Below, in pieces: positions 7,006-35,893 of a stretch of DNA of 64,000 nt. Source of the DNA: Thelephora terrestris (lineage: Eukaryota > Basidiomycota > Agaricomycetes > Thelephorales > Thelephoraceae); NCBI GenBank assembly GCA_015956445.1, contig WIUZ02000023.1, positions 310,001 to 374,000 on the forward strand, read 5' to 3'. The notes under the pieces were generated by a model. That model had not been told where the DNA came from. It worked only from the letters and a program-made list of their open reading frames with translations, and did not search any database. A program made the translations under genes and the position numbers. Positions within the stretch are counted from its first letter, which is position 1, and every line of letters begins with the position of its first letter.

Positions 7006-8481
7006 TGCTCATAGGGAAGAGATTTAGCGAAGGGAGGGGGGAGATTGGGGTGAAGGGAAAAGATCTCGGAGACAAGTAGAGCAGTTATAAGCACCCCATG
7101 AGTCCAATTGAAGGGTGACCCGGTACATGTAATGGGCGGTGCCACCAGTGACGCCGGTGACATACGATCGCTCGCCCTAGCGGCAACCTCGGACGGGATG
7201 GTCGGAAATAAGCGTCCCCTCTGCTTCGTGCGTTTCCCGTATGATACGGTCCCGTGTTACCGCCCGGTTTTGATTGCTTGGCCTCCGGGGTTTGCCGGAC
7301 GAGAACCTTCTGAATCATCTGTCGGATGTTGCCCCTGGTAGGGATCTATGTACATAAGACGCCCCGACCGTTTATACGGGGTCCGTAGTTGAGGGTTCGG
7401 GAATAACCACCATTGAAAGCGCCACCTTCTCACCAAGGTGAGATAAGAGCTGGAAAGGGCGTGATCGGACGGTGATGCCAATACATATGCACGAACCCAC
7501 GAGCGAGGTGATCACCTCGGCGACGCGGGAGCAATGTCAAACAGATGAAATTTCCACACTCCTCCCTATCGCCTCGCAGTCTAATCTGTAACTTTGAGCA
7601 CTCATTGGTCGTCTTCACCGAGTCTCGTTCGCATTCTGGGGTTCGTCGGATCTTGTCGACGTGCCATCAACAAGTCATGGAAGTTCTGATACTCACGCAC
7701 TGGTGATCGAGGCGTAGAACCATGAGGTAAGTCGTCACGAGCTGCGAGGCCTTGAGGGAGTATAAGGGGTTACCGGCCCTTGCCAGAGAAGCACTATTTT
7801 CCTGGGCGGCGCTTCGGACAGGGGTACGTATTGCGATAGAGGCGCTCACAATCGATTGCCAGACTTTCCACAATTCGCTGATGCCTTTTATACCACTTAG
7901 GATGAGTCTGGACCCCTGCGCATGAAGTCGATCGGTTCGAGGGCCCATACATTGGACGAGGGAAGATTCCTGAAGGTGAAATTCCAGCGGTTCAGAGGTG
8001 CTTTCTGATGCTTGGCGTAAGCGCCGTGCGCGAGGGCAGCTTTCGTAAATCGAAGTGAGTAACAAGAGCATTCGACGTCCGATCGTGACAGCGTTGGCCG
8101 CTTCTAGGGACAACCAGGTACACGCCACTTACATGTGTCATAAGCGGCGTTCGATTGAAGCCGTACTGTGCCCCGGTTACAGGGCCCAGGATACGGGAGA
8201 CCCTACTCAAAGGTTGTTCAGTGAGGAGTTGACCATTTCGGACACAGAATACATCCGATGAGTTGTGATGTGATCGAGGACCATCCTCTAGAACGGACGT
8301 CACGATCAGACGAACGAAGTACGATCGTGCAGCTCAAGGTAGATAGGGCAGGGGAGGGGTTGAACGTACGATAACCTAAATTACCATCAGTCATGCAGAG
8401 ACGGGGGCTCGTTACAAGCACATTCCTACTTAGGGCCGAGAGAGTGCTTAGCAGACTGCAGACATCACATTGAACGCAGTG
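7006..8481. other. Intergenic, possible unidentified minus-strand exon
   Basis: About 1.5 kb upstream of copy B. A 153-codon minus-strand frame at 7667-8128 and an overlapping one at 7992-8303 are the longest open stretches, but neither has a motif I know and I found no convincing splice partners. The right end should contain the 3' UTR of PRP40. Confidence 0.4.
7085..7090 (-). promoter_or_regulatory. TATA-like element of copy B
   Basis: TTATAA 80 bp upstream of the start at 7005, matching the position and context of the hexamer before copy A. Confidence 0.4.
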
Positions 8482-14805: not shown

Positions 14806-16498
14806 ATGCCCGGAAAAAAGTCCAAGAAACCAGTCAAATCTCTCGCAAATCACCTCTTGTTGGGAATTCCCACCAACATCGCCGCTGGTCCGCTCGGCTT
14901 CCGAGTAGAACTGGACACCAACACCGAAGGTGAGTGGGATCATGATCTTACGACTCGAGAGCAGATCAAGCAGATTCGACTGTAACCCTAGATGCGGACA
15001 ACCGTAGGCCCTCACGAATCGTATTTCACCAAACAAAGAGTGACACTCAAAAACCTCCCACACCGGGAACCTCAGCTCCATGTGTTGTGGGTGGAGGGTT
15101 TGAACCTGGTAACGACCCTGCAGGTGAGTGTCCCTGATCCCTGCTATTGAAACCGACATTCAATTCAATCTCTGCTCCCCTCCCCAGTAGGACAGCAAGA
15201 AGGCGAACCGGCGGCAACACCGAAGGGTACGAGCTGATATCGTTGTGCTGTCCTCAATCATCTTAACACCAACCAGTTCCGGAGCGCGAGCGCAAGGATC
15301 ATATGCTTAGGGGCATCATATCTGACGATGTCAAGATAGTGAGGGGGGCTGCAGATGGTTTTGGTTCTCTCAAAACCGTCCTAGTTGCAATCTCTGCAAT
15401 TTGTGCTGATCACGAAGTTCGTTTACAATTCTTTGCCCGAGCTTCTTCGCTAACGCTCTCATCTGTAGGGAACTACCGCCATCGAAAACAAGATTGAAGA
15501 CCTTCTCTCGCGCGTAGCCACGCTGGAAGGACACTTCGGTTCATATCCGGGTGACGTGGCAGAGCAGAGACACCGGAGTGAAGTGATACGGTATGTCATC
15601 ATTTCTCTTGTGGGCTCGGTATTGAGTTTCTTCCAGAAGGTTTAAGGGGATTGAAGGACGACTGCAGTTTTCAGCTGAAAACCCTGAGCTGCAGCTGCAT
15701 GCTGATCTCGCCCAAGACCACGGAGAGGTCTTTGGGGCCCTCAAAGATATACGAGAGACTATCTTCAATTACCAGGTTTGTTTCCGACTCTGGCACCCTT
15801 GTAGATATTGACGAGAAAAACAGCTGGTGCGACAAAATGGGATCTACGAAGGAGAGCGCAAATTGATAGTGAGTGCTTTTCTTCCGTCTTACAATAAATG
15901 TAATGACCTCTCGGCAGGACCCAGGTCAGGACATCCCCCCACTCTACATTGCGCGCCTGTTACAAACCTCCAAATAGCTGATGCTGCGGCCCTCAACAAC
16001 TTTCGTAGTGCACAGGGGGCTGAGCATCAACATGGAGATCGCAAAGGTTGCCTCAAGGGGACACGTGGACCTGTTCTGTACGGGATCGGACTCTGGGCAA
16101 GGGACTTTGACAAGACACCGGTCTACTGGTTGAATGGATTAGCTGGCACAGGGAAGAGTACAATCGCACAAACGATTTCAGAAAGACTTTTCGCAGATGG
16201 ACAGCTGGGAGCCTCCTTCTTCTGTTCACGAGACTTCGAAGCCCGGAGCAACCTCCAATTGATCTTTCCGACCCTCGCCGTTCAGCTCGCTCGCAAATTC
16301 GCCGGGTTTCGGTCAATCTTTGCTCCCATGGTTCTGTCGGACCCAGGACTTGCATACGAATCCCTATACAATCAAATGGATAAGCTTATCGTGCAGCCTC
16401 TCAAGGAATCTGGTGTCTCGACTGTAGTGGTCGTTGACGCCCTGGACGAATGCAAAGATAAAGAACCTGCCTCAGCTATCCTGTCAGTCCTTGGGCGG
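14806..16498 (+). pseudogene. NACHT-WD40 STAND NTPase, 5' part (split by LTR element)
   Basis: N-terminal and NACHT part of a basidiomycete nwd2/HET-E-like STAND protein, a class tied to non-self recognition and cell death in fungi. ATG at 14806 begins MPGKKSKKPVKSLANHLLLG. Spliced exons follow: DADNRRPSRIVFHQTKSD, then PERERKDHMLRGIISDD, then a helical region IENKIEDLLSRVATLEG. A short exon (QNGIYEGERKLI) leads to the NACHT core: Walker A GLAGTGKSTIAQTI near 16140 and Walker B VVVVDALDEC near 16430. The frame is open up to SAILSVLGR, where the Gypsy element starts. The reading frame resumes exactly after the element at 32817-32821 with LVSKVPKVKFFLTG, so the gene was a single exon there. Called pseudogene because of the insertion and further breaks in the 3' part. 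Confidence 0.9.
16495..16498 (+). repeat. Target site duplication GCGG (left)
   Basis: GCGG before the TG of the left LTR equals GCGG at 32817-32820 after the CA of the right LTR. Only four bases match. Confidence 0.8.
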
Positions 16499-17471
16499 TG
16501 AACTGCTACTATCCGGGTGGAGTCGGGACACGACCAGAATAGCAGAAGTGGGGGTGAGGGGTCACCGGTTGTGCAGAGGTCGGGAAGGGGAGAGAAGCTA
16601 GACAGAGGAGAGGGAACCACGGTAGGTCGCGACGTTGTCGGGACGAGAAGGGAGAACTCCGTACTAGCAAACTCCTGCTAGACGATGACGATGGGCTAGG
16701 GGTCTATTGGAACTATGGGGCTAGTGGAATCGATGTCAGAGCGAGGAGCTGGAGGTTTTCGATGATCAGGTCGTTCAAGCAGAAGGGAGAAGAGGTGTGA
16801 AGAGGCCCAGGGGTTTCTTGGTCGTTCAACTAGCTAGTACAGGGTATTTATAGGTAAAGACAGTGCGATCTACGCGAAAGAGATGGGAAAAGTAGCGAAC
16901 AAATGGAGAAACGGTGGGAGAATAAGAACAGGTAGATAGAAGGGGATAAACGAGAGTCCGATGTAGGGTAGGGAGACAAACGGTTCATCGGGAGGCCGGA
17001 ACGAGGCTGGGACAGGTCTTACCGAGAGGATGGAGCGATCGTGAGAAACAGGACCGAAAGGGGAAGTTTACGGGTTCGAGATCAAAAGATCGTAACCGGG
17101 CGGGAGAGCGGGAGCAGTCGAAGATGATTGGCGAGCGAGAGGGAACGAGTCGACACGTGTATAGACTGAAGGGAACCGGACCGAGGGAGGGGACACGTCA
17201 TCTCGGCGAGATAAGGGATCGGGAGACATCGGCCGATCGCAACATCACGTGCCGTTCGGGGAGGACGGCCACGGAGGCAGAAACAGCGTGCGATGACGCG
17301 CGTCGAAGGGATCGCGGGAACGGTTCGATGATCGGGACGTCAAGTGGGCGTGACCCTCCTGTGACCGATCGAGGGGTCGTCGGCTCGCGTAGTCAGTAGC
17401 TAGCGGGGTAGGGAGGTAGGGACTGGGGACTAGCACTAGATTCGAAGGTCGCGCGAATAGACAGCGGGTCA
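16499..17471 (-). repeat. LTR (3' LTR in element sense)
   Basis: 973 bp, begins TGAACTGCTAC and ends GCGGGTCA. Same length and, where compared, same sequence as 31844-32816. Confidence 0.97.
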
Positions 17472-17490
17472 TCTCCTCGAGACTTTTAAA
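17472..17490 (-). promoter_or_regulatory. Polypurine-tract-like site
   Basis: Directly inside the 3' LTR; in element sense it reads AAAAGTCTCGAGGAGA before the LTR, the place of the plus-strand primer. A small hairpin (AACC, six-base loop, GGTT) follows on its inner side. Confidence 0.6.
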
Positions 17491-17623
17491 ATTCAACCAC
17501 CCTTGGTTGCGTGAGGTCGCCATGAGGCACACGTGAGGCGTCCGAATCGGGAAGGCCGCGCGGAAGCAAAACGACGAGATCGCGGTTTCGCCAGCTCATC
17601 ACTTCTCTTTTCTGGTCCTCATC

Positions 17624-19567
17624 ATGTCTTCCTCTTCTAAATGGACTCCTCCTGCTGCTGCCAGCGACCCGATTATCCTGGCCGCTATGATACAGAGCGC
17701 CAAGGCGGTGAAGATCCCGGACGACGAGAAGCATCCCGATTGGGCTCGCCCCACGATCAAGGCCTTGGTGTCGGCTCAGGGACGTCCGGAAGCGTTCGAG
17801 CCCGTCTGGGCGACGGTCCTGCCGTTTTGGCGGCTCAAGGGGTTGGAGGAAAGGCTGGAGGGGGATAAGGAGTTGCGGGACCCTTGGGCGATGCATGCGT
17901 TGGCTTGGCTGGTGAGTCGAGTCGCGACGTTTCGATGTGGCGGGAGGGAGGGACTAAATCGTCGAGTTTGTAGGCTTGTCATCGGGACGTGTGCCGTAGT
18001 TTTGGGCTCCCGCCGCTACAGTTGATCGTCGACTGGGCAGACGCGGCAGAGTCCATCGGTTGGCTGACTCCGGGCTCGACTCCTTTTGGCAAGGATGAAG
18101 AGGAGGCTCCTGCACCCGTGATCAGTCGTCAATCGACGCTTCGACCGGTCGGGAATGCTGGGGAGGCTGCTACGCCAGCTATGAGTCGTCAGCCGTCTAT
18201 CCAGGCGATCGGGAACGCGGGAGACGATTTCCCGCCGGTTACCAGTCGTGAGCCGTCTCTTCAACCGACTCCGCAGACGTCCGAGCGGGACGAGGACTTC
18301 GAGATGGAGGATACGCCTCGGAGGAGCGTCGGAAGCAGCCAGAGCACTAAGGGAGGGAAGAGTACGCTCATTCCGTACGTTGCCGTTCCTCCTCGTCCCA
18401 CAGCTACCCAAAGGCGTCTTCCGGCTGTGGAATCGAGCGTCGGGTCGAAGAGGGACCTCCCTAGCTCGCCGAACAAGGAGGAGTCGACTTCGAAACGTTC
18501 GCGAACGACCGGTACCGTGGAGAAGGGGAAAGGCGTTCAACGCACTCACGTTCCGGCCTTTCCAGAGGTCGATCTCTCCAAGGAGACATATGAAGAGGAA
18601 GCTCAGCTGAACACCGTGAGGTTTCCGGGTGCGCGCAACCTTGTGAGTCCCCCGTCTTCTCGCGTCGTATCCATGTTTCTCATAGCCCTGCTAGACGTGC
18701 GATCGGTGCGCTAGGTCTCCGTTACAGGAGGTGAAGGATGCGTGTCGTCCAACCTGGTGTGTCCCGATCAAGGAGGACCGTCCAACCTTCATTTGCGCGA
18801 GCTGCAGGAAGGACAGGAAGGGCTGCTCCTTTAAGTGGCTCACGCTCGGGATTACCCACTGGCCTACTGTCACCCGTACAGCTAAAGGGGACGCCCGTCG
18901 CAGGAAGGATGCCGCGGAACGTCGAGGTAAGGAGGTTGCCACGGACGAGCTCGCTGGTGACGACGGGAGTGTCCCGAAGCCAAAGAGAGCCCCTCGCCCT
19001 CGCGTGCGCAAGTCTGCTGCTTCTGCGGCTCTGGATCCCTCGCCTTCCGTTTCCACCCGTTCGAAGACTAGGGCGGCAACGTTAGGGTCCTCGACTGCGG
19101 TTCCCACTGTCGCGATGGCTGGTCTGTCCGTCGGGGGTCCTTCCAGCCTTTCCTCGGGGCTGCACAGCTGGGAGGTCGACCTTCGCGATTTTGAGCAGAA
19201 CTGGGGTGAGTCCGAGGATTCGCCGGTTGCTGTGGAGCAGCTTCGCACAGCCCTGCGTGTCCAGATGTCCAGGGAACGCAATGAGGTGGATCAACTCGCC
19301 GATCTGGTCGCGGGTCGTCGCTACATCTCGAAGCGGATCCTGGCGAGGATGAATGCGGAGATCGATCGCCGAGGTGGGGAGGAGATCTGGGACACCTCTG
19401 ATCTCGAGGGTTCGGGAGAGGAGGGAGGTGATGGCGACGTTTCTGTGGGTGCTGCGGGCGACGAAGATATGTTTTCGGACGGTGAGGATATGGCGGTAGG
19501 TGCGGGAGGGGGATCTCAAGGTGTGGGCGAGTCTGGAGTGGCTGAAGAGGGGTTGCGGGATGTTTGA
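17624..19567 (+). CDS. Antisense accessory gene 1 of the Gypsy element (Cys-rich motif)
   Basis: Three exons read on the strand opposite to gag-pol: 17624-17911, 17974-18642 and 18728-19567, each intron with GTGAGT and an AG acceptor, phase 0, about 598 residues. The N-terminal 100 residues are helical (PTIKALVSAQGRPEAFEPVW). The middle is Ser/Pro/Arg-rich and low complexity, with three repeats of a SRQ/SRE-P/S-x-Q type unit near residues 140-190. After the second intron comes a Cys cluster, CRPTWCVPIKED then FICASCRKDRKGCSF, resembling the Cys motifs of basidiomycete transposon-linked proteins and suited to bind metal. The C-terminal half has Arg/Lys-rich and acidic tracts and a helical segment (SRERNEVDQLADLVAGRR). 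Function unknown; a nucleic-acid-binding role is inferred from the Cys and basic content. Confidence 0.7.
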
Positions 19568-19788
19568 GGGACGAGGGGTAGGTCGCGACGAACTTTTACA
19601 ACTACCATCATGTACTTCTTGGCTTCTTGGACTTTTGGTTTCTTGAATCGACTTGTTTTCTTGGTTTGTCGTGTCTGAGAAGTGGTGAGATCCGTGAAAT
19701 CAGCTGGGTGAGACATGGGGACGGTCTGCCTCCTCTTTGGCGGGTTGCGGGGGATGATCGGGAGGCAGGCGCGATAGTGGGGACTAGC

Positions 19789-19807
19789 TCTCCTCGAGAC
19801 TTTTAAA
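19789..19807 (-). repeat. Second copy of the polypurine-tract module
   Basis: A 19 bp exact copy of 17472-17490 (tctcctcgagacttttaaa). As at the first site, a small hairpin follows (GACC, six-base loop, GGTC). It lies between the two antisense genes. Confidence 0.75.
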
Positions 19808-20069
19808 CACTGACCGTCCTCGGTCACCATGACGATGTCCTGCAGGTCTGGGAGGCGTTCCGCGACGGGAGGGGCGAGGAGCGCGGAGGGGAAAAGTCGA
19901 CGGCACCTGGGGTACAGCTTCGCGGTCCGGTCGGGACGATCGGGACGCTTCCGGCGTCTTCCGAACCACGTGGGACGCCGTACGGTCCGCGAGGAGGGGG
20001 GAAAACGTCGGGGGTGGGGATCGAGTGAGAAAAAAAATTTTGAAGTCCACCACCACCAGCACGACCGCA

Positions 20070-21380
20070 ATGCCTCTCATCGGGAATCACTATCTCACCG
20101 ACGGCGACAATCCTGTGTGGATAAACAGCCTTGAAGCTCGTGATCCCCCCACTGATCGTCCAGGGGTCGGCTTTCTCGACATCACTCTTGCAGACATCGT
20201 GGAACGCGTTCGGAGCGAGCGTGGGGATCGCGATGCCTTGGAAAGGGCCACGAGCTCAGATGCTCTCTTCGGATTCGCTATCAGGGCTATTGAGGACGAT
20301 CGAGGTCGCCCAGGCCGTCTGGGGGAGGACAGGGTTTGGAGGCGCCTCCTAGAGATGGGTCTCGCTGCTGATGGGATGTCGGGAGACGTTCGCGAGAGCA
20401 TCGCGACACGACAGGCCGTTCGTTATACCGCTGTAATCGCGAACGAGCTCATGAGGCGTCAGGAGGGACTTGAAAACAGGGTATGTCGCCGGGACTGGTC
20501 GCGTCCGAGCATAGTGCTGACTCTTGAATGGTAGATTGAGGAGGTCCGTCTTCGCAATGAATGGTTGAGGATCCGCGTGGGAATGATGGACCAGGCCATG
20601 GGCGAAATGGATCAGCACTACACCGCAGAGAGTGAGGCCGGGAGTCACTACGTGAGTCCTAGCTGTCCCGCGCAGGGTCGTGACGCTGACTGGAGCACAG
20701 GTCAGGGGTCTGAACGGCAGGATCATGTGGCTGGAGCAATCGCTCGCGGACTTCGTCGAGGCGTCTCTCATGCGTCGGGAGTACTACGGGGAAGTTGGGG
20801 TCCGTCGCGAGGAAGTCACCGCCGCCGCGGAGGAGCCGGTAGCCGTTGGTGGGGTGGAAGATCCGCCTGTGGTTACGGAGGTCCAAGCTCAGGCAACGGA
20901 CGAGGACGGGGATATTGTTCTTGCGCAGGGGGAGGATCGCGAGGAGGCTCCGGTGCCGCTCGAGCGCGCAGAAAACGCTGATACCACGGGGGGTGTTGAT
21001 CATGTGAGTTCATCAGCTTTGTCGCAACGTCCACTGGTTGACCTGGGAAATCGTAGGTACCAACACCAGGTGCGACGGTCGTCGGGGCTAACACCATCCC
21101 GCAAGAGGGTCCACCGCCTTCCTATACACGCCACCGCAACTATGGGCGACTCCCTCCTGCGGAATCAGACGTGGCCGCTCGTGTGCGCATGTTGCAGCAC
21201 GCTGTCGCCTACATGCTCCGTGCTCGTGAGATGTTCGCGAGATCCACGGGCAGATATGCGGGATATGAAGATGACCTCGACCCCACGGAGGACGCCATGA
21301 TGAACGTGGTTGGGGAGACCTCGCGACGCATTCGAGCTGAGTTTGGAGAGGGTCGCGACCGCAGAGGTGACGGGGCATAG
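20070..21380 (+). CDS. Antisense accessory gene 2 of the Gypsy element (helical)
   Basis: Four exons on the strand opposite to gag-pol: 20070-20480, 20535-20651, 20701-21003 and 21057-21380, all phase 0 with GT-AG ends, about 384 residues. I start at MPLIGNHYLTDGDN; an in-frame ATG at 20025 adds 15 residues. The protein is mainly helical and charged: DIVERVRSERGDRDALERA, RQAVRYTAVIANELMRRQE, then a short coiled-coil-like stretch IEEVRLRNEWLRIRVG. An acidic linker follows, and the C-terminus is VRMLQHAVAYMLRAREMF with a basic tail. No enzyme motif seen. The layout, including an intron directly before the coiled coil, resembles the gene in the nested element at 24652-26255. Stop lies about 220 bp from the end of the pol frame on the other strand. 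Confidence 0.7.
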
Positions 21381-21601
21381 CCCAAGGTAAGAGTGAACTA
21401 GCTGGTCATTGGTGCGCAACTGCAAAGAAAAAGGGGTTGTAAAGACGATGAAAGAAGAATAGCGGACGAAGGAAATGTGGGTGTCTAGAAGGTAGATCGA
21501 AAGTGAGACGGCATTAGAATCTTAGAAGGAGGTGGATGCGAGAGTCAATAGAGAGGTGCATAGCTATAGTCCGGAATAAATACGAGACAGGTTGGTCTGT
21601 C

Positions 21602-24283
21602 CTAGAACGAAGGGGAGGGGACCTCGCGATAAGATCCAGCAGCGGGGCCCAAGGAATCGAAGAAGTGGACATCTTCAGGGTCTTCGCTGGTGGAGTCCTC
21701 GTCGTCGGGAAGAGTCGCGAAGCTTGGGTCGCGAGTCTCTGTACGAGCAAGGTAGGGAATCAGACGAAACCCGGCTACCCTGAGCTGAGACTTGGCGCCG
21801 TCGAGTTCAGCGACGATGTAAGAGGGGCCAGCCTTCTTGTGAATGACGACATAGGGGCCATTGTACCGGGGCTTGGTCTTACGGTTCAGAGACTCTTCGA
21901 TGCGAGAATTCCGAACGAGAACCAGAGATCCAGGCTTGAAATCGAAGTCCACAATCTGTGAACCATGGCGCTTCTCAAACCGTTCTAGGTTCTTGATGCG
22001 GGAAGCGGTAACTGTCTCCTGCATCTTTTCAATATCCTCCTCACGCTTCGCAAGCTGACGAGCCCGGATCGCGATGAGTCCCTCGGTAGAGATGCCAAAG
22101 TCTTGGGCAGGGACGAGGTAAGTGGCCTCGAGAATATCAAAGGGGAGGATGGGGTGGACACCGTGGACCATGTAGTAAGGGGAGAACCCAGTCGCCTTCC
22201 GTACAGTGACCCGCTCGGCCCAGAAGACCTGCGGGAGAACCTCGCGCCACTTGGACTCGTTTCCATGACAGGTTTTCATGACAGCTTCACGGACATCAAA
22301 GTGCTTCGACTCGACAATCCCATTGGCTCGGGAGTTGTAGCCAGAGATGCGGATGTGTCGTATACCGTATCGCGATGCGAGGATGTCGAGGGCTGCGATA
22401 TAGGAGGAACCGTTGTCGGTGACAATCTCGGCGATGCCACCCCAACGACACAGGAGGTCCTGGAAGATGAAGTCGGCGATGACCTTGGCAGACTCGGAGG
22501 TAGTTGCCCGAGCTTCGGGATAAGATGTAAGCGCATCGCGAGCGTGGATGACGTATCGGTAGCTTCCAGTCCTGGGCATAAGAAAGGTATCGATATGGGC
22601 TTTCCAAAACAAGCCGGGAACGGTCGGGACGGTTGGCGGGATGTAGAAATATTCGGTTTGGCGCAGCTGACACTCGTGGCATGTCTTGACGTACCATCGG
22701 ACGTTCTCACTGAGGCAGGGCCACCAGAAACGCAGAAGGAGGTTGGCTGTCGTCGCGAAGGCTCCCTTGTGGCCGAGGTTGTCGTGGGCAAACCGAATGA
22801 GGCGGAGGCGATCTGAAGGAGGAGGAACGAGCTGTGGGCTACCCTTGCGATTCTTTCGGAACAGCTTGTTGCCAACGAGGAAGTAGTCTGTGGCTTGGCG
22901 GATGAACTGCCGGTAGTCGTGGTCAGAGAGGTCTGGAGGGCGCTCCAAGTCGGACAGGAACTTCTGTATCACGACCAGCCGTTCTTCACGACGGAGGCCT
23001 TTGGGGGACTGGGGGATCACGACATCAGTCTCAGAATCCGGTGAGGAGGATCGCGACGGAGCGGCAGAGTCGTCGGGAGGTTCTGGAGAGGGTCGAGGGG
23101 AAGGAGAGGAGGCATGCAGAGCTGGTTCGGGTTCAATGGCGAATAATATAGAAGGTGCTGGGTCTAGGGGGGATCGAGGTGTGTTGACTTCAAGGAAGAA
23201 TCCTGTGCCGAGGTCTATCCACTCTTCTAGTTCGTCCGGATCGTCGGGAGGCGGATCCTCAGGGGCGCGAGGACGACGGGAGAGACCGTCAGCTCCGGTG
23301 TGCTTGTCAGCGGGGACGTGGACGAGTTCGAAGTCAAAGAGCAGGATGGCGGATATCCATCGGTTCACGGCATCGTTGGGATGGAGCGTAGGGTTATTGA
23401 GCATCCCCTTGATAAACTTGGCATCCATTTCCACAGTGAGTTTCTTCACGCCGATGGTGTAAATCTGCGTCTGCTTGAGTGCGCGAAACAGCCCGAAGAG
23501 CTCGAGCTTGGCCTGGGAGTATCGCGACTCGCGATCGTTGAACGTGATGGACCCGAATCGACTGGGGTAGCGCTTTCCGTCTTCACCGACCTGAAGGAGA
23601 ATGAAACCAACACCGTTCATGCAGGAGTCGACGGCTAGGATGACTGGGCGTTGCGACTCGTAGTCGATAGGGCGTAGAGCTGGTGAGTTTACGATCGCGG
23701 CCTTGAGGTTCTCGATAGCTGCCAACTGCGGGGGTCCAATTTCGAAGGGTTCGTCTTTCCGTGTTAGCTGGATGAGGGGCCTTGCGACGAGAGTGTAGTT
23801 CTTGATGAAGATTCGAAGGACTCCACAGGTTCCCAGAAAAGCTCGAACCTCTGAAACATTTGTCGGGACTGGCCAGTCCTGGATGGCCTGGATTCGCGAA
23901 GGATCCGCGATACGACCTTCGTAAGTACAGATGTGTCCAAGGATGTCGGCCTGAGGTACTCCGATGAAGGCCTTCTTCCCGCTAAACGTAGCCCCGTAGG
24001 ACTTGACGCGCTGGATGATCCGGTGGACTGCTTGGAAGTGCTCCCAGACGAATCGTCGTATGCCTGGGTTTTCGGGGATAGTCTCATACGTTCCGTCGGG
24101 AAGCTCGTATCGCGACTTTGGGCCTTTGATGGGGACGTCGTCGGCGAAAGGCTGGGTCCAGTGTGGAATCTCGGGTCGAAGGATGTGGGATACGTCGCCC
24201 TGTAACACGGCTGGGGAGTTCGTCCAACCCATCGGTAGAACTGTGAGTCGGAACGCGCCGAGGGGAGTGTTGAACGTGGTCAT
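21602..24283 (-). CDS. Gypsy pol: reverse transcriptase (part), RNase H, integrase
   Basis: Part of the retroelement. In order: the later half of reverse transcriptase (TFNTPLGAFRLTVLPMGW, then PFADDVP), a Ty3-type RNase H (ILAVDSCMNGVGFILLQV, HTGADGLSRR), a Pro/Ser-rich linker, the integrase zinc region (HKGAFATTANLLLRFWWP, CHECQLRQ), the integrase core (TDNGSSYIAALDIL, SRANGIVESKHFDVREA) and a C-terminal module with RYNGPYVV. This order assigns the element to Ty3/Gypsy. The upstream part lies beyond the nested element. Confidence 0.9.
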   Translation of the reverse strand: MTTFNTPLGAFRLTVLPMGWTNSPAVLQGDVSHILRPEIPHWTQPFADDVPIKGPKSRYELPDGTYETIPENPGIRRFVWEHFQAVHRIIQRVKSYGATFSGKKAFIGVPQADILGHICTYEGRIADPSRIQAIQDWPVPTNVSEVRAFLGTCGVLRIFIKNYTLVARPLIQLTRKDEPFEIGPPQLAAIENLKAAIVNSPALRPIDYESQRPVILAVDSCMNGVGFILLQVGEDGKRYPSRFGSITFNDRESRYSQAKLELFGLFRALKQTQIYTIGVKKLTVEMDAKFIKGMLNNPTLHPNDAVNRWISAILLFDFELVHVPADKHTGADGLSRRPRAPEDPPPDDPDELEEWIDLGTGFFLEVNTPRSPLDPAPSILFAIEPEPALHASSPSPRPSPEPPDDSAAPSRSSSPDSETDVVIPQSPKGLRREERLVVIQKFLSDLERPPDLSDHDYRQFIRQATDYFLVGNKLFRKNRKGSPQLVPPPSDRLRLIRFAHDNLGHKGAFATTANLLLRFWWPCLSENVRWYVKTCHECQLRQTEYFYIPPTVPTVPGLFWKAHIDTFLMPRTGSYRYVIHARDALTSYPEARATTSESAKVIADFIFQDLLCRWGGIAEIVTDNGSSYIAALDILASRYGIRHIRISGYNSRANGIVESKHFDVREAVMKTCHGNESKWREVLPQVFWAERVTVRKATGFSPYYMVHGVHPILPFDILEATYLVPAQDFGISTEGLIAIRARQLAKREEDIEKMQETVTASRIKNLERFEKRHGSQIVDFDFKPGSLVLVRNSRIEESLNRKTKPRYNGPYVVIHKKAGPSYIVAELDGAKSQLRVAGFRLIPYLARTETRDPSFATLPDDEDSTSEDPEDVHFFDSLGPAAGSYREVPSPSF

Positions 24284-24324
24284 GTCGCGAGAGTCGGGAT
24301 GAAGCTGACGCTGGTCGAAGGAAA

Positions 24325-24329
24325 CGTAT
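24325..24329 (+). repeat. Target site duplication CGTAT (left, nested element)
   Basis: CGTAT before TGTCAGG; the same five bases follow CCTGACA at 27631-27635. Confidence 0.8.
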
Positions 24330-24651
24330 TGTCAGGAACATGGTATTTTTAAACTTTTTATAACACGCTCTTTCTTCGAACTCTTCTTATCACTTCTTAT
24401 GTTTCGAATGCTTCACACTCCTTATCCTTCACACCAATCATTCGAAACACACAAACGCGCATACATTCACGGCAATACGAAACAACCTGGCTATACAAAT
24501 GCTTCTACAACGTCCTCAAAAGTCGACTCTATCTACGGCAGGCCTGAAGGTCATCAAACGTCCATCTCGGAGATCATAGTGCTGGCCCCTCCTCGCTAGG
24601 ACCTCCCCAAACATGGCGTCACCATCTTCGGCACTCAGCTGAACGACTAGT

Positions 24652-26255
24652 TCAAGCCGATAGGAAGAGATACCTTCGAGCGGACCGATCAGTCTCCCAG
24701 ATGTCACCGAACTCTGGAACACCTGGTCCCACATCGCCATCACCGGGTGACTGCTCGACAGCACTGTCGACGTAGTCGGCAAGCGACCCTCCGTCTCCCT
24801 CATCGGACCCCTGGGCGGAATCCTGTCTTGCGAGTCGAAGCTGGTGGCGAAGCTGGATCTCCGACTCGACCTGTCGGTAGGGACGGTTGATTCGATAGCG
24901 GAACTCTCGTCCCCTATCTCGACCAGACTGGTCACCATCTGACTCAACTGGACGCGGGTATGGGTAAGCCGATGGAGCCATGCGATGAGCAGGACGGCGT
25001 CGAGAGCGCTTGCAACGTTGCCCCTTAGTCACCGGACGTACCTCGGCGACCCTCGGAGCATCTTCAGCTCGGTCAACCTCCATGACCACATCCTCGATCT
25101 TCACCAACTGACGGATCGGCTGCAAGGCGCAGCGCCCACAGTTCTCCTTGTCAGAAGCGGCCAAGGTGGAAGCCGGACCTGGAGTCGGAACGGGAACCGC
25201 GTTCTCGATCGGAGGCGTCGCATAGGACGACGGGTTAGGCGATGGGAGTACCACCTCGTCGGCGTACTCCAACTCGAACGGAACGTCAGCTGTCCCCTGA
25301 CCAACCAATTTGGGACCCTCTTTACAGTTACAGGTCTTGTCCTGCAAGGACTCGACCTGCGCTGTCAACACAGCCACCACGTTCTCGAGTTCTTCGGTCT
25401 AGGAAATGTCAGCTTCCATCATTCTAAGCAATGATGAAAGAGGCCTTACCTTTTCATCCCTCCTGGCCAACGCCCCCTTAATGTTGTTGTCCCGAACCTT
25501 CAACCCTGCGATCAACTCCTGATGGTTGGCGACCATGGCCTCCAACGCCTCGTTCGTCCCCTGCTGGAAGGCAGCCAGAGTCTCCTTCATCTGAAGACCC
25601 TCCGCCGACAAACGAAGGACGTCTGCCTTCGCTTCCTTCACCTCACGCTCCAATCGTTCAACCTAGGCAGTTTGGTTAGTCGAGAGTCATACTCGAATAT
25701 CCAAACGAAGGACTTACTTTGCTCTCCCCTTCCCGAACGAGCGACCACAATAACGAGGTAGCGGCAGTGGCATGGCGGACGGCCCGAGGAACGGTTGCTC
25801 CGTGCTCCAATAGGTCCTGGTCGTAGATTCCCCTTTGCAGGGTGTACCAGAGCTCCTTCTTGATCGGATGCTCCAGCTCCCCGAACCTACCCCTCATTCG
25901 GAATGCCACCTTCTCGGCGATGATCGTACGGACCCAAAGCTCATCATCCCAGGTTAACCCCATCAAATGAGGCATCGTCTCCCTGAGACGTTCGGCGTCC
26001 ACTTCCGTGACGACCTCCAAGATCTAGAAGCCGTTAGCTGGACATCAACGCCCAAAAGAACGTAACCTCTACCTAGAGGAAGGCGTTAGTGCTAGCACAG
26101 AAAGCTCTAGGTCTCCCCCATACCTGGTCATCCGTGGTATAGGGAGTCCCCGCCGCACAGGCGTAGGTCTTGCGAGCGGCGGCACGACGGTCGATGCGAG
26201 AGATGGTGGAGATACCATTGGCGACTTTGTAGGTATGGTTGTTGGGGAAGGACAT
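24652..26255 (-). CDS. Accessory-type gene of the nested element (helical, coiled coil)
   Basis: Four exons: 26124-26255, 25718-26023, 25450-25662 and 24652-25398, all with GT-AG boundaries and an open frame, about 465 residues. It starts MSFPNNHTYKVANGISTIS. Exon 2 is helical (HLMGLTWDDELWVRTIIA, ending SLLWSLVREGESK). Exon 3 is a coiled coil (VERLEREVKEAKADVLRL). Exon 4 has CNCKEG and NCGRCALQP Cys pairs, an acidic/Pro linker, an Arg-rich block (GQRCKRSRRRPAHR) and a long charged helix (VESEIQLRHQLRLARQD). No catalytic motif seen. The layout and the intron just before the coiled coil recall antisense gene 2 of the host Gypsy element. It could instead be a captured host gene; I do not recognise a host family. 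Confidence 0.6.
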
Positions 26256-27630
26256 GTTTTGGTAAGATGATGGGGAAGTTGCTGGTGTTGCTGATCAAGG
26301 ATGGCTCCAAGAAGACGTCCTTCTTATAGCCTAGATCGGTGATCCTTCACGTGACCTACCTCGACGAACCTCATTGGTCCGGGTCACATCAACTTCCGCC
26401 CCTGTACCATCATCGTTGGCTTACTACATCAAGCTGACACCTCGGCCCGCGGGACGGCCTTGGAAGAACTTCGTTCCGGAACGCCTAGAACGCGCGCGCA
26501 CTAAAAATAGGTCTCAAGACCCTGATGACCCCTTTATGACATCACGAACCCCTTTTTACGACCCCTCATGACTTTACGATTACGATCAACCCTGGACCCT
26601 GATCACACACGTGGACAGTCACATCACAGTCTCCTAACCGGAGGAAGGACTCGCCGCTATTCGGAAGCATTGCCTTAGGATCCTTCTGGTTAGCTCAGCG
26701 CATGTGGAGTAGCCGTTAGCGTGAAACGCCGGCGAATCTGTAATCCCTTATGTCCCATGAGTCTAGGCCCACGCTCCTCATGTTCGGACGCACGATAAGG
26801 TTGCCACTAGTCCGTGATGCTGTTACCGCCTACAGACAACAAGGGATGCTGCATGGTCTCTATCTTTGGCCTCTCCAAAGGAAGCATCCAAGAAGATTCT
26901 CACCTAGCCCTTGGGTGTGATCCCCAGGTACGAACTTTCATGACCCTATGCCCCTTTTTCTTTTAGGACTAGTGTTATCTTTACCCCTATGTTTCATGCG
27001 GACATTCCTTATCTTTTATGCAATCCTTCACACGCTAGTAGGGCCCTTTGTCCTTTATTCTCCCACGCGTCATATTTGTTCGCTTCCCTTACTTAGCGTT
27101 CTCACACTCCTTATCTCCCTTTGTTCGGACTTGATAAGGGTATATTAGGGTATTGACGTCATGGCCACTCCTTTAGTATAAGTAGCAACTGTGGCTGTAT
27201 CGTAGTACCTTAGTTTTGTAACCTCAGGAAATCCTCTGCCCTTCTCAGCCCAGTTGCAGTTAAGGACAAGTCAGAGTTTCTTGTTTGATCCAAGACATCC
27301 CCATCTGCTCTCCCTCCCGCTCTGCGCGTCGCCTGCGCCTCGTAACTATAGACTCCCAGCAGTCATATTAGAACACCTCGAGCGTCCAGTCGATCAACTG
27401 GTGGAGTTATCAAATCCTGTTGTAGGGATCAACCCTTGCTTGTTAAACCGAACGAAGTACGGTTTAGGTTGGGTTTCTCTTTAGGATTTCGACCTGACTT
27501 GTAGTGACCTCGGACAACCTACCGGAAGAATAGAGACGTGATCGTTCTCTCACAAGCTAGTTGGACTAGTGAGTACTCTGCGGAGTCGGCTCAGTGCACT
27601 GGTAGTTGTTGGGGTAGAGTGGCCCTGACA
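26256..27630. other. Noncoding right part of the nested element
   Basis: About 1.4 kb upstream of the nested gene with no open frame of note. It contains an imperfect inverted repeat near 26634-26695 (CTAACCGGAGGAAGG against CCTTCTGGTTAG) and pyrimidine-rich stretches near 26950-27120. The nested gene's promoter should lie at its left end. Confidence 0.5.
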
Positions 27631-27635
27631 CGTAT
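27631..27635 (+). repeat. Target site duplication CGTAT (right, nested element)
   Basis: Matches 24325-24329. Confidence 0.8.
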
Positions 27636-28945
27636 AGGTCGAGCGTGGTGTAGATGGAGCGACCAGCGAAGTCTTCGGCAACCACATCGGTGTAGGGAGG
27701 CATAGCGGCGTTCTTGATCGTAACGGCGTTGAGAGGCTCCAAGGAATGAACCAGACGTAATGACTTCCCATCCTTCTTGTAGACACAGAACCATCTACTG
27801 TTGTAGGAGGAGGACGAGGGCTCGTAGACACCGGACTGCCACTTGTTCTCGATGATCTGAGTAACCTCAGAGAGGATCCCGCGAGGGATGGGGCCTTGTC
27901 TGAGTACCCAGGGCGTGTGCGCGATGTGCGGGATCTCGATGGGGGCGAAGTACTTGGGATCGAATGTCCCTCTCTCGTCGTCAGTCCATGCGAATGCCGT
28001 GTGATGGGTGCTAACGATCCACTCCGCGAGCTTCACTTCTTCTGGTAGCAGAAGTCCTTTGCCAAGCGCCATTTGCTTCCGGCGTTCGGGAGTGAAGCGG
28101 GGGACGGGGGCGTATTCGGGAGGGTGCGTAGGCAAGGGGGGCATGTCGGCAAGGGGGTCGGGATGGTCGTGCCGAATGATCCGAAAGTTCTCTGGCAGGG
28201 TGGTGGCGACGGGTCGAGTCTTGTTCGCTACTTTCTTGTACAGGAACGTGGATCCACCGAAGGTTTCGCTAGCGAGCGGGATCCGGGAGTAGAGCTCCGA
28301 TAACCACATGCTGGCTGCTTGTGCGGGAGTAAGAGGGTCGAGAGGGGGAGATGGTAACTCTTCGCGAAGGGCTGCAAACTCTGTCGAAAGGTCGCGACGG
28401 GCGGGAGCGTTACCCATCGCGAGGAAGAGATGTTCTAGGCGTTCTGACGAAGTTCCTGCCACTTCGAGAGGTGGGTAACCGTCCTGGGTGCCTGCGTTGT
28501 TTTGGGGCGGTCCTTCCATCACACTCGATCTGAGAGCTCTGTAGACCTCTAATGCCAGGTGGCGGGTGAGAGCTGGTGTCGATGAGGTGGTCGCGACGTC
28601 GGGAGGATCGGGGATATCGAGAGTGGAGCGATCCGGTGGGGTCTCAGGATGGCCATCTATAGAATCGTATCCTATGAAGAAAGAGGAGAAAGGGGTGGGG
28701 GCAGCATAGTAGGATGATATGGGGAAGGGAGCAGAGGAGAGAAAAGGAGAAAGGACGGAGGAAATCGAGACAAGAGGAGGTGGGAGAGGAGACATAGGTG
28801 AAACTGACGCAAGTTCTGGTAGAGGGGACTGGGACAGGGAGGTATCATAGGGTATCCGATGTTTTGCGGCCTGCAGCTTGGCGTGCACTGCAGACACTGG
28901 GAGTCGGTTGGGTCGGGACGCGGGAGTAGGTTCAGACGGCTCCAC
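27636..28945 (-). CDS. Gypsy pol: linker and start of reverse transcriptase
   Basis: Part of the retroelement. A Ser/Pro-rich linker is followed by the beginning of reverse transcriptase: ESEVTQIIENKWQSGVYEPS-type fingers region, RWFCVYKKDGKSLRLVHSLE and IYTTLDLY. The nested element interrupts it on the left. It follows the gag-protease frame as a separate frame, as in many Gypsy elements that use frameshifting or read-through. Confidence 0.85.
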
Positions 28946-29013
28946 GAAGATGTGGGGCTCTTTGCGCGAGAGCGGGGGAGGTTGGGGCTCTGTCGCGACC
29001 GTAGTGCCGTCTG

Positions 29014-31695
29014 CTAATGAAAATTTACCGCTTCCTCGGGATTTGGTCGAGGAGACTTGCGGATTCGGGGCTGCGTCGCGAACACGTAGAGCTTTCCCGT
29101 TTTCGGATCTTTGACGCGGATCTCGTGCTTCCCTCCTGCGCTGCTGACTTCGGAGCAGCTGATGACATCGAAGAAAGGTCGTCCTAAAAGAACCTCGAAA
29201 GGCGCTTCTTCGACGACCTGGATCTGGAGATAGATAGTGATGGGACCGAGCTGAACTGGGTGGTCCTCAATAAGGCCTAGCGTCATGGTGGTGCTTGCGT
29301 TCGCCGACTCCATTGGCATAGCACGACTCGCGACGATGGGTGCTTGCAATCGGGACCAAACATCCTTTCTCATCACCACGACCTGAGCACCTCCGTCGAG
29401 AATGCACTCGGGTTCGACACCCGGCCCAAACGTCGGGTGGATGACGCGAAGGGGAAGGGAGGAGGCTGCTGCGGAGGATGAGGAGTCGTACTTCACGAGG
29501 TCCAAGAAGACTGAGGGGGGTTCTGCATCGAAACATCCAGCTAGGTAAGCATCCACTTCATCGACTTCTACCGTGTTGGCCGAGATCTTCTTGCTGGTGA
29601 CAATCTCCCTGACGTGTTTTCGAAGGTCGGGAGCGACGGCCAGAAGTTCGCGAGCGCTGAGGTTGACCTTGGAGTCGAGCACACGATGGACTATGTCGCT
29701 TGTCTTCACGTTGTGTTCGACTGGGGCCTGGAAGCGATACTTGGAGTCGTCGGGGGGTGGTCTAGGTGGATAGGAGACTGGTCGCATCGGTCCTTGGGGG
29801 CGCTGTGTCTGGCGATCTCCCGCTCGAGCTCCAGGCTTTCCGGAGGTGTTGGCGGGGTTCGTCTGGGTCTGGGTAGGAGCAGAAGTGGGCTTGGACGGTC
29901 CCGACTCGCGATTGGCTGGGGTAGGGCCTGTAGGGGCAGGTGGTAATCGTCCATCCCTTCGGGGTGGGCCCGTCCTTCTCGCGATCTCGACACCGTCAAA
30001 CCTGACTTTCTTGGGGCCAGTCTGCAGGGCGTAGATCTGGGCGTTGCGAATGGAGTCGAGCTGGGCTTGCATCAGTTCGACTTGTTCTAGTGTCTCGTCG
30101 TCGTACTTGGAGAGGGGGTTAGGAGCGTAGCGGTTCTCGACGGGAGTGTGTGGTATGCTGGTAGTCGCGTAGTCCTCTTGGTCGGGATCGCATTCCTCCT
30201 CGAAGAGGTCGTACTGTTCGTCGGGATGGGCGTCATACTCTTCGGCAGGGGGGTCTATGTCTATGGTGAACACACACTCGTCTGGGCCTTCTAAGAAGTT
30301 GGTTGCAAAGGCGTCGCGACCTTGTCCTTCGTCGAGGCCCTCTGATGTCCAGTAGTTGTCGATACGTTCGCGAAGGTTCTTGCCAGGGATGTTGCGTGGA
30401 GGGTAGCGGCCATCGGGCAAGGATAGCTTCCCGTAGCCGTTCTTGATGACTTTCCCTTGTACGAGGTAGTCCGCTGCGATGGGGCAGTTGCGAACGAAGT
30501 GGTCATGGGCGCTACAGAACACGCAGTTCTGGGTGTACTGCTCTGGGTTTAGGGTGTTCCACCGGGGGACGTTTTGAAATACTCCTCCCGGAGTAGTCTG
30601 GGAAGTAGCGGGATGAGGGAGGCGCGGTGGAGGGGCAGAAGGAGGGGGCCCACGGCGAGGCTGTACGTTCGCGGTGAAGACCCGAGTCAGGTTTGACATT
30701 GCCTGAATGAGCTCGCTGACGCTCCCCTGCTCTGCGGGCTCCGTCTTCGGGATGACGGCTCGAGAGTCGGGGTTGTCGTCGGGAGCGCGTGCGTTAAGGA
30801 CGAACAACGCAGCCTCGTGGACATCAGAGAACTGGTAACCGTCGTCGGGAAGGACGTCAGGCTTCTTGATCGACAGTCGATGCAGGATTCGTGCGCGGAT
30901 AGGCTGGGGGAATCCCCTGAGATAGGCGGCGTCACGCTCCCGAGCGGTGTAGCGTCCCTTCGCAATGAGGTACGCGGAATAGGTAAGGAAGGACCGGTGG
31001 TAGTCGCCGAGGTCTTCGCGACTCATGTCCCGGTACCCGCGAGTGCGTTCCAGGAGGGTATCCAGGTCTCGAGTGGTCCAGCGGCGATCCGCTTGGAGGT
31101 GGGAGTACAGATGTCTAACTTCGATCTTGAACTGAGCCCAAGTGGCGGGAGTGTGAGCGAGGACGTCCGGGTGCAAGCAGGGAACGTGCTCCCAGGATTC
31201 AGCTGCGCGACCGGCGTAACGCTGAGCCCAGTCAATCATCTGTGCGTCGTCCAGACCTGCGCGCTTGGCTACCTCCTCGAGCTCGTCAAAGAAGGTCTTG
31301 AAGCCTTGCTCAGTATCGGAGGCAAACCGGGGAGCCTCGCGACTGTGCGTCAGGGGCATGTTGGCCGTCATTGCTGGATAAGATACGGGTGGGCGGGTGG
31401 GAAAAGTTGGTGTCGTTATCGGGAGGGCCTGCGCGAGTCGCGACGGGGAGTCTGGGGGAGTGGGCGATCGCGACGGCGGAACGGTGCCTGGCAAGTCGGT
31501 GGGTGAAGATAGTGGGGTACGGAAGAAGGTCTCGTCTTGTTCGGGATGCGGGAGAGGGTTGTTCGATGAGGAAGCGATCTGCCGGGCTACGATGGCGGAA
31601 ACGACGTTGTCGAGTAGAGAGAGAGTTTGGCGAGTGTCGAGAATAGCCTGTCGGGCTTCCCGAACGTCTTGGTTAATCTCGGCTGGGGTTTGCAA
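29014..31695 (-). CDS. Gypsy gag-protease frame
   Basis: Part of the retroelement, 893 codons. The N-terminal part has a coiled-coil-like stretch (REARQAILDTRQTLSLLD), then a capsid-like domain of the fungal Gypsy type (QMIDWAQRYAGRAAESWE, YHRSFLTYSAYLIAKGRY). A nucleocapsid zinc knuckle follows (CVFCSAHDHFVRNCP), then an acidic linker and a retropepsin-like fold (ECILDGGAQVVVMRKDVW, FEVLLGRPFFDVIS). The translation start is the first Met of the long frame, about 150 bp inside the 5' LTR. Confidence 0.88.
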   Translation of the reverse strand: MQTPAEINQDVREARQAILDTRQTLSLLDNVVSAIVARQIASSSNNPLPHPEQDETFFRTPLSSPTDLPGTVPPSRSPTPPDSPSRLAQALPITTPTFPTRPPVSYPAMTANMPLTHSREAPRFASDTEQGFKTFFDELEEVAKRAGLDDAQMIDWAQRYAGRAAESWEHVPCLHPDVLAHTPATWAQFKIEVRHLYSHLQADRRWTTRDLDTLLERTRGYRDMSREDLGDYHRSFLTYSAYLIAKGRYTARERDAAYLRGFPQPIRARILHRLSIKKPDVLPDDGYQFSDVHEAALFVLNARAPDDNPDSRAVIPKTEPAEQGSVSELIQAMSNLTRVFTANVQPRRGPPPSAPPPRLPHPATSQTTPGGVFQNVPRWNTLNPEQYTQNCVFCSAHDHFVRNCPIAADYLVQGKVIKNGYGKLSLPDGRYPPRNIPGKNLRERIDNYWTSEGLDEGQGRDAFATNFLEGPDECVFTIDIDPPAEEYDAHPDEQYDLFEEECDPDQEDYATTSIPHTPVENRYAPNPLSKYDDETLEQVELMQAQLDSIRNAQIYALQTGPKKVRFDGVEIARRTGPPRRDGRLPPAPTGPTPANRESGPSKPTSAPTQTQTNPANTSGKPGARAGDRQTQRPQGPMRPVSYPPRPPPDDSKYRFQAPVEHNVKTSDIVHRVLDSKVNLSARELLAVAPDLRKHVREIVTSKKISANTVEVDEVDAYLAGCFDAEPPSVFLDLVKYDSSSSAAASSLPLRVIHPTFGPGVEPECILDGGAQVVVMRKDVWSRLQAPIVASRAMPMESANASTTMTLGLIEDHPVQLGPITIYLQIQVVEEAPFEVLLGRPFFDVISCSEVSSAGGKHEIRVKDPKTGKLYVFATQPRIRKSPRPNPEEAVNFH

Positions 31696-31821
31696 AGCCA
31701 GGAGCCGAGCGCGAGATCGCGTCTGAGGGGGGGAGAAATCTAGCGGGATAACCTTCTGCGCACGACCTCGTCCGCGGGGTGGAATGGCTGATAGCTTCTA
31801 GCCAGAAGTGACCTCTGAACC

Positions 31822-31840
31822 GGTCTCGGCGTGGGTTCCA
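31822..31840 (-). promoter_or_regulatory. Primer-binding-like site
   Basis: Three bases inside the 5' LTR the element strand reads TGGAACCCACGCCGAGACC, beginning with the TGG that pairs with a tRNA CCA end. I could not name the tRNA from memory. Confidence 0.45.
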
Positions 31841-31843
31841 AAA

Positions 31844-32816
31844 TGAACTGCTACTATCCGGGTGGAGTCGGGACACGACCAGAATAGCAGAAGTGGGGGT
31901 GAGGGGTCACCGGTTGTGCAGAGGTCGGGAAGGGGAGAGAAGCTAGACAGAGGAGAGGGAACCACGGTAGGTCGCGACGTTGTCGGGACGAGAAGGGAGA
32001 ACTCCGTACTAGCAAACTCCTGCTAGACGATGACGATGGGCTAGGGGTCTATTGGAACTATGGGGCTAGTGGAATCGATGTCAGAGCGAGGAGCTGGAGG
32101 TTTTCGATGATCAGGTCGTTCAAGCAGAAGGGAGAAGAGGTGTGAAGAGGCCCAGGGGTTTCTTGGTCGTTCAACTAGCTAGTACAGGGTATTTATAGGT
32201 AAAGACAGTGCGATCTACGCGAAAGAGATGGGAAAAGTAGCGAACAAATGGAGAAACGGTGGGAGAATAAGAACAGGTAGATAGAAGGGGATAAACGAGA
32301 GTCCGATGTAGGGTAGGGAGACAAACGGTTCATCGGGAGGCCGGAACGAGGCTGGGACAGGTCTTACCGAGAGGATGGAGCGATCGTGAGAAACAGGACC
32401 GAAAGGGGAAGTTTACGGGTTCGAGATCAAAAGATCGTAACCGGGCGGGAGAGCGGGAGCAGTCGAAGATGATTGGCGAGCGAGAGGGAACGAGTCGACA
32501 CGTGTATAGACTGAAGGGAACCGGACCGAGGGAGGGGACACGTCATCTCGGCGAGATAAGGGATCGGGAGACATCGGCCGATCGCAACATCACGTGCCGT
32601 TCGGGGAGGACGGCCACGGAGGCAGAAACAGCGTGCGATGACGCGCGTCGAAGGGATCGCGGGAACGGTTCGATGATCGGGACGTCAAGTGGGCGTGACC
32701 CTCCTGTGACCGATCGAGGGGTCGTCGGCTCGCGTAGTCAGTAGCTAGCGGGGTAGGGAGGTAGGGACTGGGGACTAGCACTAGATTCGAAGGTCGCGCG
32801 AATAGACAGCGGGTCA
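31844..32816 (-). repeat. LTR (5' LTR in element sense)
   Basis: Partner of 16499-17471, at a constant offset of 15345 bp. In element sense this copy drives transcription of gag. Confidence 0.97.
32190..32197 (-). promoter_or_regulatory. TATA box in 5' LTR
   Basis: TATAAATA on the minus strand inside the LTR, oriented toward gag; the twin in the other LTR is at 16845-16852. Confidence 0.5.
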
Positions 32817-32820
32817 GCGG
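32817..32820 (+). repeat. Target site duplication GCGG (right)
   Basis: Matches 16495-16498; the host reading frame continues from here. Confidence 0.8.
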
Positions 32821-35800: not shown

Positions 35801-35893
35801 TTGCATTACCAACTACCAGAGATTGACATTCTAAAGTTACTAGAGTGGTTGGTATTTTTCCTTTTCTGTTGTGGATTTCCTTCCTGTCAGTAG
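32821..35893 (+). pseudogene. NACHT-WD40 STAND gene, 3' part, with its own lesions
   Basis: Continuation of the gene begun at 14806. It opens with LVSKVPKVKFFLTGHLEP, the end of the NACHT domain, then a helical linker (LDFLCERAAGLFVYAVATV, HKSFPDFITDPTRC). A TAA at 33637-33639 interrupts the frame between EVGDLQ and RAEQHISSALQYACKSW. A normal intron at about 33857-33911 leads to ESPMLDLVNDCFKFV. A one-base loss in an A run near 34094-34097 shifts the frame before SWDLSITTKRF. WD40-type repeats follow (ELFFSPDSNMLTCYG, IYLWRDCPTG, GKVIAWDVSTGDC). A TGA at 35099-35101 stands where family members have FSPDG preceded by a glycine. These are host-gene lesions in addition to the Gypsy insertion. 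This half is clearly AT-richer than the 5' half. Confidence 0.88.

Follow-up and report, generated by a model that had tools for sequence, protein, structure and literature searches.

A long terminal repeat (LTR) retrotransposon of the Ty3/Gypsy type occupies 16499-32816 of the 64,000-nucleotide stretch of Thelephora terrestris DNA analysed here (contig WIUZ02000023.1, positions 310,001 to 374,000 of the forward strand; hereafter the window, to which all coordinates refer). The hexamer TCGCGA is strongly enriched along this element, with a sharpness close to that of a single-base recognition rule and independently of codon choice and reading frame, and we tentatively suggest that a protein encoded by the element reads it.

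The Gypsy element and its dispersed hexamers

The LTRs end in TG..CA and a 4-bp target duplication, GCGG, lies on either side of the element, as expected of Ty3/Gypsy LTRs. The domain order of protease, reverse transcriptase (RT), RNase H and integrase is likewise that of Ty3/Gypsy elements, with the RT interrupted by a nested insert. Matches to the Pfam families RNase H, H2C2 and rve exceed the cut-offs, while RVT_1 falls below (21.6 of 29.6) and the protease-type matches lie narrowly under theirs (28.1 of 28.2 bits). Between pol and the 3' LTR sit two plus-strand, and thus antisense, genes, on the evidence of sequence and open frames. The identity of the LTRs indicates a recent insertion and, with the long frames still open, indicates that the motif was inherited from the parent copy and did not arise through damage after insertion. 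The features are as follows.

16499-32816, minus strand: Ty3/Gypsy LTR retrotransposon, from its LTRs and the order of gag-protease and pol
16499-17471, minus strand: 3' LTR, 973 bp, identical to the other LTR; on the plus strand 1 TCGCGA, 6 TCGGGA and 3 GCGGGA
16523-16643, plus strand: densest LTR cluster, with TCGGGA at 16523, 16580 and 16638 and TCGCGA at 16627
17624-19567, plus strand: antisense gene 1, putative exons 17624-17911, 17974-18642 and 18728-19567, borders inferred by eye; candidate reader of the motif
17922-17927, no strand: TCGCGA within intron 1 of antisense gene 1
18743-18826, plus strand: Cys cluster of antisense gene 1, C-x4-C-x11-C-x2-C-x6-C, from the translation
20070-21380, plus strand: antisense gene 2, containing introns, its exons modelled approximately; 9 TCGCGA
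21605-24329, minus strand: pol frame, part two, covering the end of RT, RNase H and integrase, with 13 TCGCGA and, on the plus strand, 9 TCGGGA
24330-27630, no strand: nested 3,301-bp element, ends TGTCAGG/CCTGACA, CGTAT duplication; no TCGCGA
27631-29016, minus strand: pol frame, part one, located upstream of the nested insert, with 5 TCGCGA
29017-31695, minus strand: gag-protease frame, matching DUF4100 and aspartyl protease; 11 TCGCGA and, on the plus strand, 10 TCGGGA
31844-32816, minus strand: 5' LTR, 973 bp, identical to the 3' LTR
16499-31843, no strand: dispersed [T/G]CG[C/G]GA sites, nested insert excepted

For all counts the element was taken without the nested insert and with one LTR, about 12.1 kb. 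A sequence-only reading of this DNA had counted some 44 copies of TCGCGA by eye where composition would give about 4, and the exact figures bear this out: 44 copies (45 in 16499-32816 with both LTRs) against 3.5 expected at order 0, 6.5 at order 1 and 8.9 under an order-2 Markov model, the last falling to 5.8 once motif sites are masked. Simulated order-1 and order-2 sequences peaked at 13 and 17 copies (150 runs each). Counted against a Markov background, as that reading had recommended, TCGCGA showed the largest excess of all 6-mers in the element (z 11.7 at order 2); the top words elsewhere reached far lower values, 5.3 in the host and 4.8 in the nested DNA. By part, one copy lies in the LTR, 14 in the antisense region, 13 and 5 in the two pol pieces and 11 in gag, close to the by-eye figures, and GTCGCGAC occurs nine times in the element. 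The nested insert, noted before as lacking the hexamer, holds no TCGCGA, no TCGGGA and two TCCCGA. The host flanks had been credited with roughly a dozen copies at the chance rate; there are in fact 16 against 13.2 expected (4 in 16.5 kb on the left, 12 in 31.2 kb on the right), so that the chance rate holds overall but not for the 11 copies grouped at 43-52 kb, considered below.

The motif is broader than TCGCGA alone and can be written [T/G]CG[C/G]GA, with TCGCGA as its strongest form. Measured against the masked second-order background, TCGCGA is enriched 8.0-fold, TCGGGA 6.4-fold, GCGGGA 4.1-fold (22 copies in the element) and GCGCGA 2.2-fold; TCCCGC, the reverse of GCGGGA, also reaches 4.1-fold with 7 copies. 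TCGGGA, which had looked common on the plus strand, occurs there 42 times against 7.2 expected, and TCCCGA 6 times against 3.3. Most other one-base neighbours on the plus strand stand at 0.3 to 1.5-fold, the exceptions, all with small counts, being TCGCAA (2.7), TCGCTA (2.1), CCGCGA and TCCCGA (both 1.9) and GCGGAA, GCGGCA and TCGCGG (1.6 each); a few reverse complements of neighbours (2 to 9 copies) reach about 2.5-fold. When the TCG forms are masked, GCGGGA ranks first, followed by TTCTTG and CCTCCT. Such near single-base specificity looks more like a recognition sequence than a mutational or compositional bias. Beyond the hexamer, the flanks of the 44 TCGCGA and 42 TCGGGA copies add little consensus; C is scarce just 5' of it (7/44 and 3/42, respectively) and G is frequent seven bases before TCGCGA (28/44). 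A reading as TCTCGCGAGA-type palindromes, the sites of vertebrate BANP/Kaiso, was dropped, as CTCGCGAG does not occur.

Codon choice, noncoding DNA and spacing

Two nulls were used to separate the motif from the proteins that it overlaps. In the synonymous null, each of eight coding pieces had its synonymous codons shuffled with the protein kept unchanged; the junction null also preserved first bases and the dinucleotides at codon junctions (2000 shuffles each). The 37 coding copies of TCGCGA compare with 5.6±2.2 under the synonymous null and 14.1±2.7 under the junction null, and thus exceed the maximum seen in either set of shuffles (15 and 24). A codon- and dinucleotide-corrected expectation of this kind had been set beforehand as the test of the enrichment. 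Both nulls err on the cautious side, since the motif is itself part of the codon usage of the element, and 37 of 44 is a lower bound on the coding share, as the map omits the beginning of the second piece of pol and some parts of the antisense exons. The proteins permit TCGCGA at 87 coding positions, of which 37 are used, in all three frames (8/26, 12/30 and 17/31), while the remaining 15 NCGCGN words fill 0 to 11% of their permitted places. This use, 0.43, is unmatched by any other of the 2,179 words with 30 or more permitted places; GTCGTC (0.33) and TCGGGA (0.32) come next. Codon usage is therefore rejected as a full explanation of the TCGCGA excess, in agreement with the earlier argument that the codon choice of one protein would not suffice.

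The strictly noncoding set, made up of LTR, leader, intron and intergenic DNA, comes to 2,146 nt. There TCGGGA occurs 10 times against 1.2 expected (2.3 from the dinucleotides of those parts themselves) and GCGGGA 5 times against 1.0, with no TCCCGA or TCCCGC. Because these two forms are stronger there than TCGCGA (3 copies), the claim that the motif is not confined to genes rests more on them. The survival of the excess under two codon nulls, its spread over three frames and the presence of TCGCGA and TCGGGA in LTR, intron and intergenic DNA support a signal that acts on the nucleic-acid sequence. Of the DNA-level signal proposed from the sequence alone, it is this sequence-level action on nucleic acid that stands; the motif itself proved wider than TCGCGA.

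The sites are spread evenly. The three TCG forms (TCGCGA, TCGGGA and TCCCGA) have a mean spacing of 131 bp and number 7, 6, 7, 10, 6, 7, 7, 8, 8, 8, 7 and 11 in successive kilobases, with none in the last partial bin, so that a density of 6 to 11 per kb is kept across the LTR, the antisense genes, pol and gag. The per-kb counts are under-dispersed (chi-square 3.2 on 11 degrees of freedom, p 0.012, last partial bin dropped). Regular spacing was not significant by the gap test (p 0.097), nor was the number of gaps of 15 bp or less, a measure of close pairing between sites (11 against 7.9 expected, p 0.15), and the element contains no relevant tandem or long dispersed repeats, with two small tandem arrays at most.

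Other features of the locus

An 18-base word, CTCCTCGAGACTTTTAAA, occurs twice and identically, within 17473-17509 and 19790-19826. Each copy is followed by three bases and a 6-bp hairpin with the loop CCCT or TCCT, the stems of which differ in sequence and yet pair. A single base separates the first copy from the 3' LTR, at the position expected of the polypurine tract, and each copy is upstream of an antisense gene; the repeated word may be a shared promoter or an additional polypurine tract.

Within the window the eight coding pieces matched only themselves, and the pol pieces had no relatives in the collections of viral contigs and genome contigs searched. The 248-residue frame of the nested element (24655-25398) matched no Pfam family at E values up to 1. 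On the host side, the element seems to lie inside a gene (15827-16498 and 32817-35890) with the P-loop GLAGTGKST and, downstream of the insertion, weak WD40-type matches under the Pfam cut-offs; this may be a fungal NLR-like gene that the insertion interrupted. Host segments 696-1869 and 5830-7011 match each other at 78% identity along 1.2 kb, in the same orientation, and represent a local duplication.

Possible readers of the motif

We propose, as a tentative reading, that a protein encoded by the element, for which the Cys-rich product of antisense gene 1 is the candidate, recognises the dispersed motif and counteracts silencing in the manner of VANC. Selection would maintain the sites, in noncoding DNA mainly as TCGGGA and in the genes of both strands, through synonymous codons, as TCGCGA and TCGGGA. 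The sequence-specific protein would bind them along the integrated copy, would tell its own family by the density of sites and, once bound, would counter silencing over the entire element. The large number of sites, each presumably weak, together with their even spread and their maintenance through synonymous codons, suggests that binding would be cumulative. In the translation of antisense gene 1, basic stretches come after the Cys cluster, and a weak structural model of it shows a long helix.

The precedent comes from Arabidopsis, where VANC21 of VANDAL21 is reported to require a dense short motif found mainly in its own transposable element family (PMC5735166) and to strip methylation over the whole element (PMC5735166, PMC10398659), the motif being given as YAGTATTAY (PMC5735166, PMC10398659). 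The systems share a dense short motif in one transposable element that is rare elsewhere and an additional protein encoded by that element. In the window, the density is likewise high in the element and not in its surroundings (44 against 5.8 to 8.9), with the host cluster as a qualification. VANC motifs lie in one orientation, a feature on which the element gives a mixed picture, since the 42 to 6 ratio of TCGGGA to TCCCGA is partly accounted for by composition. Unlike the VANDALs, which are plant DNA transposons, the element described here is an LTR retrotransposon in a fungus. The VANC protein domains were not found in the antisense-gene pieces by Pfam, and the noncoding tandem repeats of VANC systems have no counterpart, at least 37 of the 44 TCGCGA copies being coding and 3 strictly noncoding. 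The likeness is thus one of working, and membership of the VANC family fails on two features, tandem arrays and domains.

In plant Ty3/Gypsy elements with antisense open reading frames (ORFs), these are placed between pol and the 3' LTR. Bacterial Chi, KOPS and DNA-uptake sequences are over-represented short words in coding and noncoding DNA, some of them strand-biased; they span whole bacterial chromosomes and differ in word and protein, whereas the present motif belongs to a mobile element. The plant elements (PMC7264820, PMC11963269) likewise carry extra frames besides gag-pol, and among the matches listed none reported a dispersed hexamer for Gypsy elements with antisense ORFs. Nor, among the matches listed in the open-licence literature, did any report the motif TCGCGA with a retrotransposon or a fungus.

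Several observations weigh against an element-encoded reader. The evidence comes from a single copy of the element in one window. The excess of TCGCGA in noncoding DNA, 3 copies against 1.0 expected, is not significant (p 0.08), and whereas tandem repeats in noncoding DNA hold most VANC motifs (PMC5735166), here the sites are mostly coding and not repeated. Within the host, 43274-52353 holds 11 of the 12 right-flank TCGCGA copies where 2.8 to 3.8 are expected (scan p 0.005), six of them within 1.7 kb at 47336-49045 (scan p 0.002); TCGGGA (2 copies) and GCGGGA show no excess in this stretch, and no relatives of the coding pieces of the element were found in it. The pieces of antisense gene 1 that were compared with Pfam, at E values up to 10, had no match (of the antisense-gene pieces as a whole, three were compared at up to 10 and four longer ones at up to 1, all without a match), and the single-sequence structural model of its exon is poor (mean pLDDT 49.5). 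A partial strand bias, finally, is not needed for a mark on duplex DNA and would suit a role in RNA.

That bias is suggestive. TCGGGA and TCCCGA stand at 42 to 6 in the element where composition predicts about 70:30 (binomial p 0.0045 or 0.011, depending on the model), at 12 to 3 in 17472-21604 and at 10 to 0 in the noncoding parts, and for the three non-palindromic forms pooled the use of permitted sites is 53/241 in one orientation and 12/152 in the other (Fisher p 0.0002). The element without its nested insert is G-rich on the plus strand (0.351 G, 0.233 C); its genomic-RNA strand is correspondingly C-rich (0.351 C, 0.233 G), across the antisense genes and LTR alike. The main rival to our proposal is a signal in the RNA: Gag, or some other protein that binds RNA, would recognise UC[C/G]CG[A/C] all along the genomic RNA and thereby package, export or protect it. 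We consider this somewhat unlikely, and less so than any other alternative. A full-length RNA would span LTR, coding and antisense parts alike, the non-palindromic forms favour one orientation even in the antisense genes, and the Gag frame contains a zinc-knuckle-like CVFCSAHDHFVRNC. The orientation bias is nevertheless in part compositional, as control anagrams share the lean (median odds ratio 1.29) and 19% of 119 reach the TCGGGA ratio. Both orientations exceed the codon null (30 against 8.3 and 6 against 2.2), GCGGGA and its reverse TCCCGC are equally enriched, and the predicted RNA accessibility of the motif was significantly raised in none of eight comparisons and lower in one (p 0.025). 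A related idea, that TCGCGA palindromes dimerise the genomic RNA, starts from the self-complementarity of the hexamer and from the single 6-nt palindrome used for dimerisation of Ty3 RNA, as described in PMC11381356. We give it hardly any weight, for neither TCGGGA nor GCGGGA, which are enriched together with TCGCGA, is self-complementary, and the complement of each is the rarer word on the same strand (42 against 6 and 22 against 7).

Another possibility is that the sites recruit a host DNA-binding protein, either a cell-cycle factor of the SBF/MBF type or a methylation-linked reader. The CGCG core and the choice between C and G recall the fungal SBF site CGCGAA and the E2F site GCGSSAAA, as given in PMC4862756; CGCGAA/TTCGCG occurs 23 times in the element against 9.0 expected, and the host stretch at 43-52 kb shows TCGCGA clustering too. 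Yet 17 of those 23 belong to a TCGCGA, leaving 6 outside, an A after TCGCGA is not preferred (8/44), and ACGCGT, CGCGAAA and TTTCCCGC, one form of the E2F site, are found 1, 2 and 1 times on both strands of the element. Sites of the SBF, MBF and E2F types were rejected on this count, no enrichment being seen beyond TCGCGA itself. As the host flanks are near expectation overall and most sites are coding and not in promoters, recruitment of a host factor seems to us improbable. Less probable still is that codon usage, base composition or mutational bias of the element produced the whole pattern. The G-richness of the plus strand, the rise of the expectation from 5.6 to 14.1 with codon-junction statistics and the weakness of TCGCGA in noncoding parts all point that way; against this, TCGCGA stands 8.5 and 14.3 standard deviations (z) over the two codon nulls, the other NCGCGN words are unfavoured, one-base neighbours are mostly near background and TCGGGA is strong in noncoding DNA.

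If the element-encoded reader is nonetheless the right explanation, the entire sequence of the retrotransposon, much of the synonymous choice in its protein genes included, may have been shaped for its own nucleic-acid-binding protein and would amount to a code for self versus host along 12 kb, a view that we hold as tentatively as the proposal itself. The plant precedent concerns DNA transposons with noncoding arrays of motifs, and here the code would lie inside gag, pol and the accessory genes. Should a protein of the element read the motif, this would be a testable case of coding DNA with a second message at the DNA or RNA level and, if true, a new route by which a retroelement may escape silencing or choose its own RNA.

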